Source: Chloroflexia bacterium SDU3-3 (GTDB lineage: Bacteria; Chloroflexota; Chloroflexia; Chloroflexales; Roseiflexaceae). Taken from it: 64,000 nt of DNA. The DNA lies in contig WBOU01000012.1 of assembly GCA_009268125.1 (NCBI GenBank), forward strand, positions 62,001-126,000, given 5' to 3'. Positions 239-13,172 of this stretch are shown here, in pieces. Each line of letters begins with the position of its first letter. Positions within the stretch are counted from its first letter, which is position 1. Both the position numbers and the translations under genes were made by a program. The notes under the pieces were generated by a model. That model saw nothing but the letters and a program-made list of their open reading frames with translations, did not search any database and was not told where the DNA came from.

Positions 239-331
239 ATGTTCCGCAGCGCTTTCAGCATTATTATTAGCCTCCTACTAGTAGTCCTTATCCATAAGGG
301 CTTACTTGCGTGCGGGGGCGATGCAAGCTAA
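239..331 (+). CDS. ilvL: ilv operon leader peptide (attenuator peptide)
   Basis: A 30-codon ORF begins at ATG 239 and ends at TAA 329-331. Residues 8-18 read IIISLLLVVLI, so ten of eleven are Ile, Leu or Val, the three products of the operon behind it. The codons in the run include the less common CTA, GTA and ATT, whereas the neighbouring genes strongly prefer CTG, GTG and ATC. The ORF sits between a consensus promoter and an intrinsic terminator (359-391), the arrangement of ilvGMEDA- and ilvB-type attenuation in enterobacteria. Scarcity of any branched-chain aminoacyl-tRNA would stall the ribosome here and should prevent the terminator from forming. The ribosome binding site is weak (AGAAG region about 230). 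The peptide itself probably has no other job. It is too short for most gene finders. Confidence 0.85.
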   Translation: MFRSAFSIIISLLLVVLIHKGLLACGGDAS

Positions 332-358
332 GCGAAGCGAACCCGAGATGCGAATGAA

Positions 359-391
359 GCCCCCCCGGTCACGGGTGGGGCGTTTTGTTTG
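359..391 (+). terminator. Transcription attenuator of the ilv-leu operon
   Basis: GCCCCCCCGG (359-368) pairs with CGGGTGGGGC (372-381) with one mismatch, and TTTTGTTTG follows. It begins 28 bases after the stop of the Ile/Leu/Val leader peptide and about 200 bases before ilvB, so readthrough would be set by leader translation. The anti-terminator partner was not resolved by eye. Confidence 0.75.
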
Positions 392-2384: not shown

Positions 2385-2930
2385 GTGAACAAGCATACCA
2401 TTGTGGCCCTGATGCAAGATAAGCCCGGCGCACTGAACCGTACGGTGAGCCTGTTCCGGCGGCGCGGCTTCAATATCGAGAGCCTCTCGGTCGGCCACAC
2501 CGAGACCGAGGGGGTCAGCCGCATGACCATGGTCGTGGAGTCGGCGGATGTCGAGCAGGTGGTCAAGCAGCTCTACCGCCTGATCGAGGTACTGAAGGTG
2601 AGCGATGTCACCGCCGACCCGACGGTTGAGCGCGAGATGGTGGTGGTGAAGATCCACGCGCCCAGCGAAAAGCGCGCCGAGATTGTGGCACTGTCCGAGG
2701 TTTTTGGCGCTAAAATTGTCGATGTTGGCGCGAGCACCATGATCCTTGAGATGACCGGCGCACCCTCCAAGGTCGAGAACTTTGTTGATGTCATCCGGCC
2801 CTTTGGCGTGAAGGAGATGATGCGCACCGGGCGGATCGCCATGGTGCGCGGCGCTCGCGGGCATGGCGCTCAGGCGTATGAGAACGCCGAGAATGGCCAT
2901 GTCGCCGAGCCGTCGGCTGCGCTCAACTAG
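2385..2930 (+). CDS. ilvN: Acetolactate synthase, small (regulatory) subunit
   Basis: A 181-residue regulatory partner of IlvB that confers valine feedback sensitivity in characterised systems. The N-terminal ACT domain (about residues 3-75) includes PGALNRTVSLFRRRGFNIESL. The C-terminal half matches the ALS small-subunit domain (EREMVVVKIHAP onward). The start is GTG 2385, giving VNKHTIVALMQDKPG; longer in-frame upstream starts would add a low-complexity tail overlapping the intergenic region. It lies 55 bases after ilvB and 45 bases before ilvC. Confidence 0.95.
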   Translation: MNKHTIVALMQDKPGALNRTVSLFRRRGFNIESLSVGHTETEGVSRMTMVVESADVEQVVKQLYRLIEVLKVSDVTADPTVEREMVVVKIHAPSEKRAEIVALSEVFGAKIVDVGASTMILEMTGAPSKVENFVDVIRPFGVKEMMRTGRIAMVRGARGHGAQAYENAENGHVAEPSAALN

Positions 2931-3998
<1,068 letters not shown>

Positions 3999-4010
3999 TC
4001 ACACCGGGCT

Positions 4011-4061
4011 GCGGGCGGCGGCTGAGATCCTGCTTAGCCGCCACACCGCCGCTCGCAGGAG
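4011..4061 (+). promoter_or_regulatory. Alternative hairpins next to the leuA ribosome binding site
   Basis: GCGGGCGGCGG (4011-4021) can pair with CCGCCGCTCGC (4046-4056), placing a stem directly against the AGGAG of leuA (4057-4061). A competing inner stem, GGCGGCT (4017-4023) with AGCCGCC (4036-4042), would free the outer arm. Whether this controls leuA translation is inference. Confidence 0.3.
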
Positions 4062-4070
4062 CAGAAATTC

Positions 4071-5750
4071 ATGGAACCTCAGGGAACAGACTACGTTCGT
4101 ATCTTTGATACGACGCTGCGGGATGGTGAGCAGGCGCCTGGCTGCACAATGTCGCTCGAGGAGAAGCTCGAGATGGCGCGGCAGCTGCGGCGCCTGGGTG
4201 TAGATATTATCGAGGCCGGGTTCCCCGCCGCCTCCCCCGGCGACTGGGCGGCGGTCCACCAGATCGCCCAGGAGGTCGGCACGCCTGACGGTCCCGTGAT
4301 CGCGGCCCTGGCGCGGGCGGTGAAGGAGGACATCCACAAAGCCTGGACGGCCATCCAGCCCGCCGCCAAGAAGCGCATCCACACCTTTATCAACGCGTCC
4401 GACATCCAGATCGAGTACCAGCTGCGCTCCACCCGCGAGGAGGTGCTGAAGCGTGGCCGCGAGATGGTGCGCTACGCCCGCTCGCTCTGCGAGGATGTTG
4501 AGTTCTCGCCCATGGACGCCACCCGCGCCGATGTGCCCTTTATGTTCGACCTGCTGGCCGCCGCCATCGAGGAGGGCGCGACCACGCTGAACATCCCCGA
4601 CACGGTCGGCTACTCCACCCCCGAGGAGTACGCCGCGCTGATCGCTGACATCCGCGCCAAGGTGCCCGGCGCGAAGGACTGTGTCATCTCGGTGCACTGC
4701 CACGATGACCTGGGCATGGCCGTGGCCAACAGCCTGGCCGGGGTGCGCGCTGGCGCGCGGCAGATCGAGTGCACGCTGAATGGCATCGGCGAGCGCGCGG
4801 GCAACGCCTCCCTGGAGGAGGTGGTGATGGCCCTGCACACCCGCAAGCAGTTCTTCGGCGTCGAGACCCACATCAATACCCGCGAGATCGCCCGATCGAG
4901 CAAGCTGCTCTCCACCACCATCGCGCTGCCGGTGCCGCCGAACAAGGCGGTGGTCGGCGCGAACGCCTTCGCCCACGAGTCCGGCATCCATCAGGACGGC
5001 GTGCTGAAAAACCGCCTGACCTACGAGATCATGAGCGCCGAGACGGTGGGCCTGGATGGCAACGAGCTGGTGCTGGGCAAGCACAGCGGACGCCACGCCT
5101 TCCGCGCCAAGCTGGTGGCCATGGGCCACGAGTTCGAGAGCGAGGACGAGTTCCAGCGGCTGTTCGAGCGCTTCAAGGAGCTGTGCGACCGCAAGAAGCA
5201 TGTGGATGATCGCGACATCGAGGCGCTGATCTCCAGCGAGGCGCAGCACACCCCCGAGGTCTACAAGCTGACCCACGTGCAGGTGACGAGCGGCACAGGC
5301 GTGACGCCGGTGGCCACCGTGACCCTGGTGGGGCCGGATGGCGAGACCAAGATCGACAGCGCGCACGGCGCAGGCCCGGTGGATGCGATCTACCGCGCGA
5401 TCGACCGCGTGGTGCAGCGCCCCAACGAGCTGATCGAGTTCGCGATCAACGCCATCACCGAGGGCATGGATGCGGTGGCCGAGGTCTCGGTGCGGCTGCG
5501 CGACACGCGCCCCGCCGAGCAGCCGCAGGCCGAGCAGCCGGGCGTGTTCAGCAAGCGCCGCGAGCAGGTGTTCAACGGCTACGGCGTCAACACCGACACG
5601 CTGGTGGCCGCCGCCGAGGCCTACATGGGCGCGCTGAACAAGATGCTCGCCGCCCGCCAGCAGCGGATCAGCGCCGAGGAGGCGGCCTACGCCGCAGGCT
5701 ACGATCAGAACTCGCCAAGCTACGCCGTAGACACCTTCGGAGGCAAGTGA
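4071..5750 (+). CDS. leuA: 2-isopropylmalate synthase
   Basis: A 559-residue enzyme that condenses acetyl-CoA with 2-oxoisovalerate, the committed step of leucine synthesis. It has an N-terminal HMGL-like TIM barrel with FDTTLRDGEQAPGCTMS (residues 8-24) and the metal-binding HCHDDLGMAVANSLAG segment near residue 210. A linker and the C-terminal LeuA regulatory domain (about 390-520) follow, which binds leucine in homologues. Its length separates it from short homocitrate synthases. ATG 4071 has AGGAG ten bases upstream. CimA (6.8 kb) is a related but distinct paralogue in the same operon. Confidence 0.95.
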   Translation: MEPQGTDYVRIFDTTLRDGEQAPGCTMSLEEKLEMARQLRRLGVDIIEAGFPAASPGDWAAVHQIAQEVGTPDGPVIAALARAVKEDIHKAWTAIQPAAKKRIHTFINASDIQIEYQLRSTREEVLKRGREMVRYARSLCEDVEFSPMDATRADVPFMFDLLAAAIEEGATTLNIPDTVGYSTPEEYAALIADIRAKVPGAKDCVISVHCHDDLGMAVANSLAGVRAGARQIECTLNGIGERAGNASLEEVVMALHTRKQFFGVETHINTREIARSSKLLSTTIALPVPPNKAVVGANAFAHESGIHQDGVLKNRLTYEIMSAETVGLDGNELVLGKHSGRHAFRAKLVAMGHEFESEDEFQRLFERFKELCDRKKHVDDRDIEALISSEAQHTPEVYKLTHVQVTSGTGVTPVATVTLVGPDGETKIDSAHGAGPVDAIYRAIDRVVQRPNELIEFAINAITEGMDAVAEVSVRLRDTRPAEQPQAEQPGVFSKRREQVFNGYGVNTDTLVAAAEAYMGALNKMLAARQQRISAEEAAYAAGYDQNSPSYAVDTFGGK

Positions 5751-5762
5751 GGCTAGTGGAAC

Positions 5763-5793
5763 GCGCGCCAGACGGCGCGCATTCTGCTTTTTC
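5763..5793 (+). terminator. Terminator-like hairpin between leuA and pheA
   Basis: A perfect 7-bp stem GCGCGCC/GGCGCGC (5763-5769, 5774-5780) with an AGAC loop is followed by CTGCTTTTTCT. It may reduce expression of the downstream genes relative to ilvB-leuA. It lies only 15 bases before the pheA start. Confidence 0.65.
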
Positions 5794-5807
5794 TCCTTTG
5801 GAATGCT

Positions 5808-6665
5808 ATGCAGACGATAGCCTACCTTGGCCCGCCCGGCACCTTTAGCGAGATGGCAGCCCTCGCGGTCGGCGACGCCGACACCCAGTATCTGCCGCTG
5901 GCCAGCATCCCCGCCGTCGTCACCGCGATCGAGACGGGCGCGGCCACGCTGGGCATGCTGCCGATCGAGAACGTGCTAGAGGGCAGCGTCACCACCACGC
6001 TCGACCTGCTGATCCACGAGACCGACCTGCGGATCGCGGGCGAGACGGTCATCCCCATTCGCCACAACCTGGTGAGCCGCGCGGGCGTGGCCCTGCCGCA
6101 GATCAAGGTGCTGTACGCCCACCCGCAGTCGCTGGGCCAGTGCCGCCGGTTTGTGGAGCGCTGCCTGCCTGGCGTGGCCACGGTGGCCTCGCTCTCGAAC
6201 AGCGCTGCCCCCGCCGAGGCTCTGGCCGACGAGCGCCCGGCGGCGGCCATCTCCACTGTGCGCGCCGCCGATCTGGTGGGCGCGCATATCCTGGCCCGCG
6301 ACATCCAAGATCGCGCCAGCAACGTTACCCGCTTTATCGCGCTGCGCGGCGAGGATGCCCAGCCCAGCGGCGATGACAAGACCAGCTTCTGCTTCGGCTT
6401 CGACAAAGAGGACCGGGCGGGGTCGCTGGTGGAGGCGCTGCAGGAGCTGGCGCTGGCGGGCATTAACATGACCAAGCTGGAGTCGCGGCCCTCGAAAGAG
6501 GTGCTGGGCCAGTACATCTTCCTTGTGGATATCAACGGCCACCGCGAGGAGCCGCACGTCGCCGCCGCGCTCACGCGGCTGCGGGCGCGCACCGGCTTCT
6601 TCAAGGTGCTTGGCAGCTACCCAGTGTGGCGCGACCGCCGCGCCCAGCGCCCAGTGAAGCAATGA
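5808..6665 (+). CDS. pheA: Prephenate dehydratase
   Basis: A 285-residue stand-alone enzyme converting prephenate to phenylpyruvate in phenylalanine synthesis. The catalytic PDT domain (about residues 3-180) begins IAYLGPPGTFSEMAAL and contains the NVTRFIAL motif (TRF is the catalytic signature). A C-terminal ACT domain (about 195-275, starting KTSFCFGFD) carries the ESRPSKEVLGQYIFLVD segment that binds phenylalanine in homologues. There is no chorismate mutase domain. It is the only aromatic gene in an otherwise branched-chain operon. Its stop overlaps a small ORF (ATGA, 6662). Confidence 0.94.
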   Translation: MQTIAYLGPPGTFSEMAALAVGDADTQYLPLASIPAVVTAIETGAATLGMLPIENVLEGSVTTTLDLLIHETDLRIAGETVIPIRHNLVSRAGVALPQIKVLYAHPQSLGQCRRFVERCLPGVATVASLSNSAAPAEALADERPAAAISTVRAADLVGAHILARDIQDRASNVTRFIALRGEDAQPSGDDKTSFCFGFDKEDRAGSLVEALQELALAGINMTKLESRPSKEVLGQYIFLVDINGHREEPHVAAALTRLRARTGFFKVLGSYPVWRDRRAQRPVKQ

Positions 6666-6754
6666 GCGAGAGTATGCTTGCAGAACACGAGGTGGTATCG
6701 GCAGTAGGGCGCGGCAGCGCAGCCCTGCTGCCTGTGATTTGCACTGTTCGTTAG
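6662..6754 (+). CDS. Possible 30-codon small ORF overlapping the pheA stop
   Basis: ATG 6662 overlaps the pheA TGA in an ATGA junction, so translation could be coupled. The predicted peptide is 30 residues, with VV, LL and VI near its end. Its second half coincides with a hairpin (6700-6732). It could be a leader for cimA or a chance ORF; I recognise no family. Confidence 0.2.
   Translation: MSESMLAEHEVVSAVGRGSAALLPVICTVR
6700..6732 (+). other. Hairpin upstream of cimA
   Basis: GGCAGTAGGGC (6700-6710) pairs with GCCCTGCTGCC (6722-6732) at 10 of 11 positions around an 11-base loop. No T-tract follows, so it is not a standard terminator. It may be an mRNA processing or stability element between pheA and cimA. 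Confidence 0.4.
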
Positions 6755-6812
6755 AATGAGAAGAGCGTGCTGTTTTGGTGTGAAATGGTGAAAGATGAAT
6801 GGAGAACGAGCA

Positions 6813-8402
6813 GTGCAAGTCTTTCTGTATGATACGACCCTACGCGACGGTACCCAGCGCGAGGGCCTCTCGCTGTCGGCTGAGGATAAGGTGAAGATCG
6901 CCCGCGAGCTTGACGCGTTTGGTATCCACTACATCGAGGGCGGCTGGCCCGGCTCGAACCCCAAGGATGCCGAGTTCTTCCGCCGCATCCGCGAGCGCCC
7001 GCTGGCCCACGCCAAGGTGACGGCCTTCGGCAGCACGCGCCACGCCAAGAACACCTGCGAGAGCGACCCCAACATCCAGGCCCTGGTGGAGGCGCAGACG
7101 CCGGTGGTGACTCTGGTGGGTAAAAGCTCCACGCTGCACGTCGAGAAGGTGCTGGAGACCACGCTGGATGAGAACCTCAAGATGATCTCGGACAGCGTGG
7201 CCTACTTCAAGCAGCTTGGCAAAGAGGTGACGTATGATGCCGAGCACTTCTTCGACGGCTACAAGCTCGACCCCGAGTACACCCTGGCCACTATCGCCGC
7301 CGCCGCCCAGGCCGGTGCCGACTGCATCACGCTCTGCGACACCAACGGCGGCACCATGCCCCACGAGGTCAGCGAGATCGTGCGCCACGCCATGGCGGTG
7401 GTGGAGGCGCATGGCCGCACGCCGCAGTTTGGCATCCACACCCACAACGATGGCGCGATGGCCGTGGCCAACGCCATCGCGGCGGTGCAGGCGGGCTGCG
7501 TGCAGGTGCAGGGCACTATCAACGGCTACGGCGAGCGCTGTGGTAACATGGACCTGATCCCGGTGATCGCCAACCTGCAGCTGAAGCTGGGCTACGAGTG
7601 CGTGCCCGAGCAGAACCTGCGGCGGCTCTCCGAGCTTTCGCACTTTGTGGCCGCCGTGGCCAACCTGAACCCCGACACCCACGCGCCCTACGTGGGGCGC
7701 AGCGCCTTCGCCCACAAGGGCGGCATCCACGTGGCGGCGATCGCCAAGGTGGCGTCCAGCTACCAGCACATCGAGCCGGAGCTGGTGGGTAACGAGCTGC
7801 GGGTGGTGGTCAGCGAGCTTTCCGGGCGCGGCAACGTGCGCATGCGCGCCGAGTCGCTGGGCCTGAAGCTGAACGGCAACGAGCGCGCCGTGCTGCAGCG
7901 CATGAAGGATCTGGAGAGCCGGGGCTTCCAGTTCGAGGCCGCCGAAGGCTCGTTCGAGATGCTGGTGCGCCGCGCCTCGGATGACTACCTGGCCCCGTTC
8001 GAGCCGCTCGACTTCACGGTGGTGATCGAGAAGCGTGGCGATAGCGAGGTGGTCTCGCAGGCGATCGTCAAGATCCGGGTCAATGGCGAGGTGATGCACA
8101 CAGTGGCCGAGGGCCACGGCCCGGTGAACGCCATGGATGGCGCGATGCGCAAGGCGCTGCTGCCGCACTACCCCGAGCTGGCCGATGTGCACCTGGTGGA
8201 CTATAAGGTGCGGATCATCGACGAGCATCTGGGCACGGCGGCCAAGCCGCGTGTGCTGATCGAGTCGGCGCGCGGCGACGAGCGCTGGTCGACCGTGGGC
8301 TGCTCGGAGAACATTATTGAGGCCAGCTGGCAGGCGCTCTGGGATAGCCTGGAGCTGCCGCTGCTGCGGGCGCGGCAGGCCGCAGCCCACGTGCAGGAAT
8401 AG
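6813..8402 (+). CDS. cimA: (R)-citramalate synthase
   Basis: A 529-residue enzyme that condenses acetyl-CoA with pyruvate to citramalate, opening the threonine-independent route to 2-oxobutyrate and isoleucine. It shows the HMGL-like barrel start FLYDTTLRDGTQREGLS, the EGGWPGSNPKD segment typical of this CimA subgroup (LeuA has EAGFPA), and HTHNDGAMAVANAIAAV as the metal-binding segment. The C-terminal allosteric LeuA-type domain covers about residues 400-510. GTG 6813 has GGAGAA six bases upstream. An in-frame ATG at 6795 would add six residues and has a poorer site, so either start is possible. LeuC/D and LeuB in the same operon could process citramalate. Confidence 0.92.
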   Translation: MQVFLYDTTLRDGTQREGLSLSAEDKVKIARELDAFGIHYIEGGWPGSNPKDAEFFRRIRERPLAHAKVTAFGSTRHAKNTCESDPNIQALVEAQTPVVTLVGKSSTLHVEKVLETTLDENLKMISDSVAYFKQLGKEVTYDAEHFFDGYKLDPEYTLATIAAAAQAGADCITLCDTNGGTMPHEVSEIVRHAMAVVEAHGRTPQFGIHTHNDGAMAVANAIAAVQAGCVQVQGTINGYGERCGNMDLIPVIANLQLKLGYECVPEQNLRRLSELSHFVAAVANLNPDTHAPYVGRSAFAHKGGIHVAAIAKVASSYQHIEPELVGNELRVVVSELSGRGNVRMRAESLGLKLNGNERAVLQRMKDLESRGFQFEAAEGSFEMLVRRASDDYLAPFEPLDFTVVIEKRGDSEVVSQAIVKIRVNGEVMHTVAEGHGPVNAMDGAMRKALLPHYPELADVHLVDYKVRIIDEHLGTAAKPRVLIESARGDERWSTVGCSENIIEASWQALWDSLELPLLRARQAAAHVQE

Positions 8403-8415
8403 GAGAGACTGAACT

Positions 8416-9336
8416 ATGCCGATGAATGCGACCAAGTATATCTGGTTCAATGGCTCGCTGGTGCCCTGGGAGCAGGCCACAGTGCACGTGATGACCCACG
8501 CGCTGCACTACGGCTCCTCGGTGTTCGAGGGCGTGCGGGCCTACAGCACCCCCAGCGGCCCGGCGATCTTTCGGCTGAAGCCGCACACCCGCCGCCTGTT
8601 CGACTCGGCCAAGATCTACCGCATGGAGCCAGCCTTCACGCAGGACCAGATCAACGAGGCCTGCAAGACGGTGGTGCGCGAGAACGGCCTGAAGAGCGCC
8701 TACCTGCGCCCGCTGATCTGGCGCGGCTACGGCGAGGTGGGCGTGTTCCCGCTGAAGAACCCCGTCGAGGTGATGGTGGCGGCGGTGGAGTGGGGCGCGT
8801 ACCTGGGCGAGGAGGCGCTGGAGAACGGCGTGGATGTGGGCGTCTCGTCGTGGACGCGGCTGGCCCCCAACACCATCCCCACGATGGCCAAGGCAGGCGG
8901 CAACTACCTCTCGTCGCAGCTGATCGTGATGGAGGCCGTGCGCAACGGCTACAGCGAGGGCATCTCGCTCGACATCAACGGCATGATCTCCGAAGGCTCG
9001 GGCGAGAACCTGTTCCTCATCCGCGACGGTATCATCTACACCCCGCCGATCACGGCGGCCACGCTGCCCGGCATCACCCGCGACAGCGTGCTGACCCTGG
9101 CCAAGCACCTTGGCTACGAGGTGCGCGAGCAGAACCTGCCGCGCGAGCTGCTCTACCTGGCCGACGAGCTGTTCTTCACCGGCACCGCCGCCGAGATCTC
9201 GCCCATCCGCTCGGTCGATGGCGTGACCATCGGCGCGGGCAAGCGCGGCCCGATCACCACCGCCCTGCAGCAGGCCTTCTTTGGCCTGTTCAGCGGCGAG
9301 ACCGAGGACCGCTGGGGCTGGCTGGACTACGTATAA
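8416..9336 (+). CDS. ilvE: Branched-chain amino acid aminotransferase
   Basis: A 306-residue class IV PLP aminotransferase that performs the last step to Val, Leu and Ile. The sequence shows [17 protein letters not shown] near residue 25, the [11 protein letters not shown] segment (about residue 160) with the Schiff-base Lys, and [10 protein letters not shown], which binds the PLP phosphate. The length is typical. It starts 13 bases after cimA with AGGAGA upstream, so the two are probably co-translated. Confidence 0.95.
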
Positions 9337-9358
9337 CAAACAACGGGAGAATCGAACC

Positions 9359-10783
9359 ATGACCGCACCTCGCACCCTCTTCGAGAAGATATGGGATGCC
9401 CACACCGTCCGGGCGCAGACAGCCGAGACCCCGGCGGTGCTCTATATCGACCTGCACCTCATCCACGAGGTCACCTCGCCCCAGGCCTTCACCGAGCTGC
9501 GCGCGCGCGGCCTGAAGGTGCGCCGCCCCTCGCAGACCATGGCCACCATGGACCACTCGACGCCGACCACGCCGCGCAACGCCCAGGGTATCATCCCCGT
9601 GCTGGATGCGCAGGGCGCGGCCCAGCTGGAGCAGCTGGAGCGCAACTGCCAGGAGTTCGGCATCCCGCTGTACAAGCTGGGCACCCAGAACCAGGGCATC
9701 GTGCATGTGATCGGGCCGGAGCAGGGCCTGACTCAGCCGGGCATGACCATTGTCTGCGGCGACTCGCACACCTCCACCCACGGCGCGTTCGGCGCGCTGG
9801 CCTTCGGCATCGGCACTTCCGAGGTGGCGCACGTGCTGGCCACCCAGTGCCTCATTCAGTCGAAGCCCAAGACTATGGAGATCCGCGTGGACGGGCGGCT
9901 GGCCAAGGGCGTAACGGCCAAGGACATCATCCTGGCGATCATCGCCAAGATCGGCGTGGGCGGCGGCACCGGCTACGTGTTCGAGTACACCGGCGAGGCC
10001 ATCCGCGCCCTCTCGATGGAGGAGCGCCTGACGATCTGCAACATGTCGATCGAGGGCGGCGCGCGCGCGGGCCTGATCGCCCCCGACGAGACCACCATCG
10101 AGTACGTGAAGGGCCGCCCCTTCGCCCCCCAGGGCGAGGAGTGGGAGAAGGCCGTGGCCTACTGGCGCACGCTGCCATCCGACCCGGGCGCGACCTACGA
10201 TGCCCAGGTGGTGATCGACGCCAACGAGCTGACGCCCATGATTACCTACGGCACCAACCCCGGCATGGGCATGCCGATCACCGGCAGTATCCCCACGGTG
10301 GAGGAGCTGAGCGACCCGGCCCAGCGCACCGGCCTGGATAAGGCGCTGCGCTACATGGGCCTGCAGCAGGGCCAGAAGCTGCTGGGCCAGAAGATCAACA
10401 TGGTCTTCCTCGGCTCGTGCACCAACTCGCGCATCAGCGACCTGCGCGAGGCCGCCAAGCTGCTTAAGGGCCACAAGGTGGCTAGCGGCGTGCGCATGAT
10501 GGTGGTGCCCGGCTCACAGCAGGTCAAGCGCCAGGCCGAGGCCGAGGGCCTGCACGAGATCTTCCGCGAGGCCGGTGCCGAGTGGCGCGAGGCTGGCTGC
10601 AGCGCCTGCCTGGCCATGAACGGCGACATGGTGCCCTCGGGCGAGTACTGCGTCTCGACCTCGAACCGCAACTTCGAGGGCCGCCAAGGCCCCGGCAGCC
10701 GCACCTTCCTGGCCAGCCCGGTGACGGCGGTCGCCTCGGCGATCAACGGCGCTGTGACCGACCCGCGCGAGCTTCTGAGCTAG
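9359..10783 (+). CDS. leuC: 3-isopropylmalate dehydratase, large subunit
   Basis: A 474-residue aconitase-family subunit that isomerises 2- to 3-isopropylmalate with LeuD. The [4Fe-4S] cluster ligands are visible in [11 protein letters not shown] and the [12 protein letters not shown] segment. The substrate motif [12 protein letters not shown] is near residue 140. ATG 9359 lies 22 bases after ilvE with GGGAGA upstream; the frame is open further upstream but would overlap ilvE. The same enzyme type can act on citramalate, which fits the adjacent cimA. Confidence 0.95.
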
Positions 10784-10817
10784 TTTGAACTGCGCCCTGG
10801 GCGCTGGGAGTAGACAT

Positions 10818-11426
10818 ATGGAATCTATCACGACGTTTGAGGCGAAGATCGCGGCGCTGCCGGTGAGCGACATCGACACCGACCAGATCATCCCCGCCCG
10901 CTTCCTGAAGACCACCAACAAGGCTGGCCTGGGCGACGGCCTGTTCTCCGACTGGCGCTACAACGCCGACGGCACGCCCAAGCCCGACTTCGTGCTGAAC
11001 CGCCCCGATGTGCAGGGCGCGCAGGTGCTGATCGCGGGCAACAACTTCGGCTGCGGCTCCTCGCGCGAGCACGCGCCGTGGGCGCTCACCGGCTATGGCT
11101 TCAAGGCTGTGGTCAGCACCTTCTTCGCCGACATCTTCAAGTCCAACGCGCTGAAGAACGGCCTGGTGCCGATCGTGGTCGATGAGGACACGCTCTACCA
11201 GCTGTTCAGCCTGTTCGAGGAAGACCCCAGCACCACAGTGGTGGTGGACATCCCCAACCAGGCGCTGGTGCTGCCCGGCGGCCAGACCGTGAAGTTCCCG
11301 ATCGACCCCTTCGCCAAGCACTGCCTGGTGCACGGCGTGGACCAGATGGGCTTCCTGCTGAACGAGGACTCCGCGATCAGCGAGTTTGAGTCCGCCCGGA
11401 CGCCACGCGTGCAGACGGTGGCCTAG
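10818..11426 (+). CDS. leuD: 3-isopropylmalate dehydratase, small subunit
   Basis: A 202-residue swivelling-domain partner of LeuC. The substrate-recognition segment NNFGCGSSREHAPWAL lies near residues 75-90, and DTDQIIPARFL near the N terminus is typical. ATG 10818 follows GGGAG at a good distance; an earlier in-frame ATG (10785) lacks a site and adds a nonconserved tail. It follows leuC by 34 bases. Confidence 0.95.
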   Translation: MESITTFEAKIAALPVSDIDTDQIIPARFLKTTNKAGLGDGLFSDWRYNADGTPKPDFVLNRPDVQGAQVLIAGNNFGCGSSREHAPWALTGYGFKAVVSTFFADIFKSNALKNGLVPIVVDEDTLYQLFSLFEEDPSTTVVVDIPNQALVLPGGQTVKFPIDPFAKHCLVHGVDQMGFLLNEDSAISEFESARTPRVQTVA

Positions 11427-12062: not shown

Positions 12063-13172
12063 ATGCATGCGAATATTGCACTTCTCCCCGGCGACGGCAT
12101 CGGCCCCGAGGTGGTTGCCGAGGGCGTGCGGGTGCTGGATGCCGTGGCGGCCCGCTTCGGCCATGCCTTCGAGACCCAGAGCGCCCTGATCGGCGGCTGC
12201 GCCATCGATGCCCAGGGCACCGCGCTGCCCGCCGAGACCGTGGCGCTCTGCCAGGCCGCCGACGCGGTGCTGCTGGGCGCGGTGGGCGGCCCCAAGTGGG
12301 ATGACCCCAACGCCAAGGTGCGCCCCGAGCAGGGCCTGCTGGGCATCCGCAAGGCCCTGGGCCTGTTTGCCAACCTGCGCCCGGTGGCCATCCGCCCCGA
12401 GCTAGTGGCCGCATCGCCGCTGCGCCCCGAGCGCCTGGCGGGCGTGGACATGCTGGTGGTGCGCGAGCTGACCGGCGGCAGCTACTTTGGCGAGAAGCGC
12501 CGCGAGCAGCTGCCCGACGGCAGCGAGTCGGCGCTGGATGCCTGCGTGTACACCACCGCCGAGATCGAGCGCGTGGTGCGCGCCGCCGCCGAGATGGCCC
12601 GCGCGCGGCGCGGCAAGCTCACCTCGGTCGATAAGGCCAACGTGATGGAGACCTCGCGCCTGTGGCGCAGCGTGACCACCCGCGTGATGCGCGAGGAGTA
12701 CCCGGATGTGCAGCTCGACCACATCCTGGTGGATGCCTGCGCGATGTACCTGATCAGCCGCCCGGCCAGTTTCGACGTGATCGTCACCGAGAACATGTTC
12801 GGCGACATCCTGACCGACGAGGCATCCATGCTGGCCGGGTCGATGGGCATGCTGCCCTCGGCCTCGCTCGGCTCGGGTAAGCGCACCGGGGCCGACGGCA
12901 GCGAGACGGCCATGGGCCTCTACGAGCCGATCCACGGCTCGGCCCCCGACATCGCGGGCAAGGGCATCGCCAACCCGCTGGCCACCATCCTCAGCACCGC
13001 GCTGCTGCTGCGCTACTCGCTGGGGCTGGAGGCCGAGGCCAAGGCGGTGGAGGATGCTGTCAACGCCGTGCTGGCCGATGGCGTGGTGACGGGCGATGTG
13101 GCCGCGCCAGGGGCCAAGAGCTACAGCACCACCGAGGTGGGCGCTGCGGTGGTGGCCCGCCTGAGCGCGTAG
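12063..13172 (+). CDS. leuB: 3-isopropylmalate dehydrogenase
   Basis: A 369-residue NAD+-dependent enzyme that oxidises and decarboxylates 3-isopropylmalate to 2-oxoisocaproate. It begins [21 protein letters not shown]. It has the substrate arginines in ELTGGSYFG and neighbouring segments, and the metal site and signature [27 protein letters not shown] near 240-265. The NAD-binding [15 protein letters not shown] is near residue 295. The length is that of bacterial LeuB rather than isocitrate dehydrogenase. It may also act on methylmalate in the CimA route. Confidence 0.95.

Follow-up and report, generated by a model that had tools for sequence, protein, structure and literature searches.

A predicted leader-peptide attenuator ahead of the ilv-leu operon in Chloroflexia and its relatives

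Described ilv leaders and the Chloroflexia locus

Enterobacteria provide the classical cases of leader-peptide attenuation of ilv genes. The enterobacterial ilvGMEDA, ilvBN and leuABCD operons likewise have a leader with codons for the product amino acids, hairpins 1:2, 2:3 and 3:4, and the same amino acids as the element described here, which lies in a 64,000-nucleotide stretch of Chloroflexia bacterium SDU3-3 (the window; all features located below are on its forward strand). In contrast to the enterobacterial attenuators, one leader here precedes all genes from ilvB through leuD, and the regulatory codons themselves form strand 1. Rfam includes a Leu leader family (RF00512; PMC3766115); unlike the enterobacterial Leu leader, our element matches no Rfam family, RF00512 included.

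Leader-peptide attenuation of ilv genes has also been predicted in Actinobacteria, where the candidate leaders of ilvB operons are likewise short ORFs in which Ile, Val and Leu codons form runs, accompanied by terminators (PMC1262725). In those leaders the terminator overlaps the ORF, and the study left open how regulation works; in our representatives, by contrast, 18-48 nt separate the stop codon from the terminator, and an antiterminator strand can be recognized. Mutation of candidate regulatory codons in a similar ilvB leader of Streptomyces coelicolor had no effect (PMC1262725), which counts against an attenuator reading of the present locus. PMC10272879 describes a Corynebacterium ilvB-II motif and an ilvB-OMG motif that likewise combine an I/L/V-rich uORF ahead of ilvB with an intrinsic terminator and an antiterminator, although the corynebacterial uORFs usually have 15-17 residues, compared with 30 here, and our leader has no Rfam match. 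The same paper reports support for attenuation by the Corynebacterium ilv leader, proposes that the mechanism is common for ilvB, and gives 41 representatives of the ilvB-OMG motif from various phyla, possibly including Chloroflexota. Finally, a leucine-rich attenuator peptide likewise controls a branched-chain amino acid (BCAA) operon in Staphylococcus aureus, a member of a group known for T-boxes (PMC5794164); that peptide acts beside CodY, whereas the leader studied here contains all three amino acids.

A 2010 survey (PMC2965389), before adding a case of its own from Firmicutes, knew of none beyond Proteobacteria and Actinobacteria. We found no earlier Chloroflexota report in the open-access literature, although the survey of Lopatovskaya et al. 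2010 (cited in PMC4833913) may hold one. The first-pass annotation of the window had regarded ilv attenuation as established in proteobacteria and extended by this locus; the extension to the lineage stands, but the mechanism is not confined to proteobacteria (PMC1262725, PMC5794164, PMC10272879). Given the actinobacterial and staphylococcal precedents, the Chloroflexota case adds a phylum and not a mechanism: judged from sequence, a textbook mechanism is predicted to be widespread in a phylum for which we found no earlier description.

The leader, its terminator and the genes downstream

We identified a promoter-like site at 174-203 by consensus scan, consisting of TTGACA (174-179), an 18-nt spacer and TATCCT (198-203). 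It matches the sigma-70-like consensus at 10 of 12 positions and is the only such site in the first kilobase, for which shuffled sequences averaged 0.3; similar TTGACA and TATACT/TATCCT elements also occur upstream of the leaders of many relatives. Transcription would be expected to start at around 209-211. The leader ORF of 30 codons (239-331, translation MFRSAFSIIISLLLVVLIHKGLLACGGDAS, stop codon 329-331) has a weak ribosome-binding site and counterparts in relatives. Its regulatory codons at 260-292 (ATT ATT ATT AGC CTC CTA CTA GTA GTC CTT ATC) encode the run IIISLLLVVLI and are mostly ones that the operon genes seldom use; by the 12-residue criterion the ORF scores 10 of 12 I/L/V. Terminator scan and folding placed an intrinsic terminator at 359-390, with a 9-bp GC-rich stem containing one bulge (359-381) followed by GTTTTGTTT up to 390, and a hairpin energy of -18.7 kcal/mol. 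The 183-nt leader RNA folded better than 200 of 200 shuffles (z = -2.9). The first-pass annotation had described a 30-codon I/L/V ORF between a promoter and an intrinsic terminator ahead of ilvB, an observation confirmed here, with the ORF exactly at 239-331 and the terminator at 359-390. We also noted a terminator-like hairpin, AAGCCCCCCCGATCGCTCGGGCGGGGCCTTTTGTTG, at 35-67, which closely resembles the attenuator terminator 320 nt downstream; it may mark where the preceding gene ends or have arisen by duplication.

The first gene past the attenuator, about 200 nt beyond the terminator, is ilvB, encoding the acetolactate synthase large subunit (593-2329; TIGR00118, 717 bits). It is followed by ilvN, ilvC, leuA, pheA, cimA, ilvE, leuC and leuD (2385-11426, assigned from ORFs and NCBIfam matches) and by a leuB match at 12072-13145. 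Spacing and strand suggest that the ilvB-leuD cluster is co-transcribed. The presence of pheA (prephenate dehydratase) and cimA (citramalate synthase) within the ilv-leu cluster (5808-8402) raises the possibilities that phenylalanine synthesis falls under BCAA control and that the citramalate route supplies isoleucine.

Codon use in the leaders differed strongly from that of the operon genes in the window, which alone served as the reference, the leader runs being pooled from many genomes. The operon genes use CTG for 79% of Leu, GTG for 72% of Val and ATC for 93% of Ile codons, with GTA at 2% and ATT at 6%, compared with 6% CTG, 6% GTG, 62% GTA and 65% ATT in the pooled runs. The window leader has no CTG and no GTG, and three of its four Ile codons are ATT. 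As the CTC and CTT codons also form the CCTCC strand, slow decoding and pairing may both be reasons for this bias. The pooled runs (948 residues) consist almost only of I/L/V plus S, G, A, N and T, with four Phe and no Met, Trp or Cys; the I/L/V share was itself a selection criterion, which applies less to the scarcity of other hydrophobic residues. Outside the run we found no conservation of sequence among relatives. Substitutions within genera gave no sign of purifying selection on the leader as a whole (31% synonymous, compared with 29% expected), and those within the run show only a lean towards I/L/V.

These properties bear on whether the ORF might instead encode an independently functioning small membrane protein, the terminator serving only to punctuate transcription. 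The hydrophobic peptide would be able to span a membrane, but the composition of the run is unlike that of a membrane helix, its flanks are not conserved, its codons are rare ones and, among the genes tested, the leader is confined to the heads of BCAA operons, making this explanation very unlikely. We rejected a functional microprotein given the composition of the run and the unconserved flanks.

Alternative pairings and the position of the ribosome

We identified four strands that could form mutually exclusive structures. Strand 1, GCCTCC (270-275), lies within the Ser and Leu codons of the run, as seen in the minimum-energy fold. Strand 2, the G-rich CGGGGGCG (313-320), ends 11 nt before the end of the leader stop codon and has two possible partners: strand 1, and strand 3 (GCCCCCCCG, 359-367), which is the 5' arm of the terminator. 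Strand 4 (372-390) comprises the 3' arm of the terminator (372-381) and a T-rich tract (383-390); both terminator strands were recovered by folding and by the terminator scan. In the fold of the unoccupied RNA, GCCTCC (270-275) pairs with GGGGGC (315-320), and 359-367 with 372-381. The fold downstream of a modelled stalled ribosome added an auxiliary antiterminator strand, AAGGGCTT (296-303, codons KGL), which is complementary to the AAGCCC at the base of the terminator; several same-family relatives carry a related sequence. Thus mutually exclusive terminator and antiterminator pairings, for which the first-pass annotation had proposed a folding check, do exist in the computed structures.

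The 2:3 duplex in the window has an energy of -15.3 kcal/mol (shuffle p = 0.005). A strand 2 near the leader stop and complementary to the terminator arm was found in all 80 distinct attenuators; across 36 representatives it lies between -39 and +8 nt from the stop, mostly -25 to +8. Strands 2, 3 and 4 change together between genera, with the sets GGGAGG/CCTCCC/GGGAGG, GGAAGG/CCTTCC/GGAAGG, GAGAGG/CCTCTC/GAGAGG and GGGGGC/GCCCCC/GGGGC. In the 36 representatives, permuting strand 3 among genomes gave worse 2:3 pairing than that within each genome (p = 0.0003), and pairing of the run (strand 1) with strand 2 likewise exceeded genome-permuted pairing (p = 0.014), both p-values being optimistic because the representatives are related. 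The per-genome shuffle test of 2:3 pairing was significant in only 25 of 80 attenuators, because shuffling preserves G-richness.

We modelled the effect of ribosome position by folding the RNA past the ribosome edge, taken as 12 nt beyond the start of the A-site codon, just before the emergence of strand 4. Mean antiterminator pairing of strand 3 reached 0.73 for a ribosome in the run, compared with 0.47 for ribosome-free RNA and 0.29 for a ribosome at the stop codon, and modelled pairing was greater with the ribosome in the run than at the stop in 80 of 80 attenuators. As this difference comes partly from the greater length of free RNA, we shuffled the region between run and terminator as a control, which gave a pairing of 0.62 compared with the real 0.73 (Wilcoxon p = 1e-5, 36 representatives). 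For the window attenuator the modelled 2:3 pairing is moderate: depending on the codon of the run, it ranges from 0.29 to 0.71. Once strand 4 is present, equilibrium favours the terminator; the switch must therefore be largely kinetic, governed by the order of folding. Classical attenuators likewise depend on the order in which their strands fold.

Together, the I/L/V ORF between promoter and ilvB, the intrinsic terminator, the computed antiterminator and the conservation at operon heads make it very probable that the ilv-leu element is a classical ribosome-mediated transcription attenuator. This was also the reading of the first-pass annotation, which is supported by the exclusive pairings, by the conserved run and terminator and by the ribosome model in 80 of 80 attenuators. 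Translation of the leader, stalling, premature termination and the response to amino acids are predicted from the sequence and the folding model, as follows. RNA polymerase would start near 210 and a ribosome would translate the leader. With charged Ile-, Leu- and Val-tRNA plentiful, the ribosome would reach the stop codon (329-331) and cover strand 2 (313-320), leaving strand 3 to pair with strand 4, and most transcripts would end at the terminator, near 390. Were any one of these three tRNAs in short supply, the ribosome would stall within 260-292 and cover strand 1; strand 2 would then pair with strand 3, pre-empting the terminator and allowing readthrough into ilvB. If the leader were not translated, hairpins 1:2 and 3:4 would be expected to form and transcription to stop.

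The leader might instead work mainly through Rho or through translational coupling to downstream expression, and not by intrinsic termination. The gap of about 200 nt between terminator and ilvB leaves room for further control, and in one family (f5, below) a second I/L/V leader after the first has no intrinsic terminator. Against this, a strong terminator starts at a consistent 18-48 nt past the leader stop in the 36 representatives, and we regard control of this kind as highly improbable beside intrinsic attenuation.

Distribution among relatives and coexistence with T-boxes

We investigated the conservation of the element in a sample of 60 related genomes, 55 of which contain ilvB, reading the upstream DNA at 50 loci, that of the window included. 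Having inspected the relatives once, and ahead of the control runs, we fixed the cut-offs at 8 or 9 or more I/L/V among 12 residues and at a terminator energy under -9 or -10 kcal/mol. An I/L/V-rich leader (at least 9 of 12 I/L/V) lies directly upstream of ilvB, within 600 nt, at 38 of the 50 loci, and leader and strong terminator occur together in 36 of these 50 upstream regions; among 2000 dinucleotide shuffles of the same regions, a leader was found in 8 and a leader with terminator in none. At 11 further loci the operon starts with ilvD, and here the leader precedes ilvD. All 49 testable genomes, from four families of the same order, thus carry an I/L/V leader at the head of the operon, the 50th locus being left out since its contig ends inside ilvD. 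The same scan for leader and terminator was negative at leuB (0/27) and at trpE (0/25), and detected the element at 7 of 30 ilvD control loci, in all seven of which ilvD heads the operon; free-standing ilvD loci among these 30 had no leader. Conserved I/L/V-rich short ORFs in related genomes, proposed as a check by the first-pass annotation, are therefore found, and the terminator is conserved with them.

The element also occurs beyond the order, in about two thirds of 28 loci from the same class, where one leader (L167) is identical to that of a Sphaerobacter sp. record (L035). Among the matches listed, other Chloroflexota with the element include records labelled Anaerolineae (L039, L040, L050, L055, L076), Thermoflexales (L079) and Chloroflexi (L036, L045, L056, L073), and in these other Chloroflexota the element is often more than 1 kb upstream of ilvB. 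The roughly 80 diverged attenuators with an identifiable switch form a natural data set on attenuator evolution, bearing on how leaders stay at the operon head despite changes in gene order and on the choice of rare regulatory codons; the leaders are short enough for annotation to miss.

We additionally noted, among the matches listed, leader-like I/L/V-rich ORFs followed by terminators upstream of ilvB in other phyla, namely in Desulfobacteraceae MAGs (L088, L102), a Bacteroidetes MAG (L103) and an uncultured bacterium (L097). Two Gemmatimonadetes-labelled MAGs among these matches (L032, L033) carry an ilvB 68% identical to that of the window, in L032 with a leader-like ORF and terminator 1.9 kb upstream, reflecting either a mislabelled bin or gene transfer.

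The operon might alternatively be controlled by a T-box, a ppGpp riboswitch or another metabolite-sensing riboswitch, the ORF being incidental. No Rfam 15 family reached its gathering score in the window, and neither the T-box (RF00230) nor any other Rfam family gave a match at E up to 1 in 150-600. Elsewhere in the same genome we identified nine T-box hits, those followed up (L206, L271-L275) lying near ileS, trpS-trpE, pheS, glyS, thrS and serS; all nine fall below the Rfam cut-off, which suggests a divergent type of T-box. Two studies (PMC10272879, PMC8632094) state that ilv genes of other bacteria are controlled by ppGpp riboswitches. Despite these precedents, the site itself has no Rfam match and the ORF and its pairing strands take up the interval from promoter to terminator, so that a riboswitch at this operon appears extremely unlikely and attenuation by the leader peptide remains our preferred reading.

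T-box hits were found in 59 of the 60 relatives, with at least one above the cut-off in 43, and T-boxes at the isoleucine tRNA ligase and trp genes are described in Dehalococcoides, also of the Chloroflexi (PMC2494555). The first-pass annotation had set leader-peptide attenuation against the T-boxes of Firmicutes and many other bacteria, a contrast to be qualified for this lineage, which carries T-boxes as well (9 hits in this genome, and hits in 59 of 60 relatives). T-boxes in a genome do not mean that its biosynthetic operons use them: the lineage appears to employ T-boxes for synthetases and trp genes, and a leader peptide for ilv. A tryptophan leader at trpE was considered and rejected (0/25 in the gene control); the trpE operon of this genome has a T-box-like hit upstream.

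We tentatively suggest that leader-peptide control of ilv genes was possibly present in the ancestor of the Chloroflexota and has coexisted with T-boxes since, such that one genome would read its isoleucine supply in two ways, through uncharged tRNA at ileS and through ribosome stalling at the ilv operon. Within this scenario, the leader may have been doubled in family f5, giving two I/L/V leaders in tandem.

Family f5, from the same class (L173, L176, L177, L180, L195), contains tandem I/L/V-rich ORFs at about -830 to -300 from ilvB. The first has an intrinsic terminator; the second is longer, lacks one, and ends in LILLGL (ISPLGL in L177), its last codons, CTTGGTCTTTAG, being largely complementary to AAAGAGCCAAG downstream. 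Judging from these sequences, the tandem may form a double attenuator in which the second differs in type.
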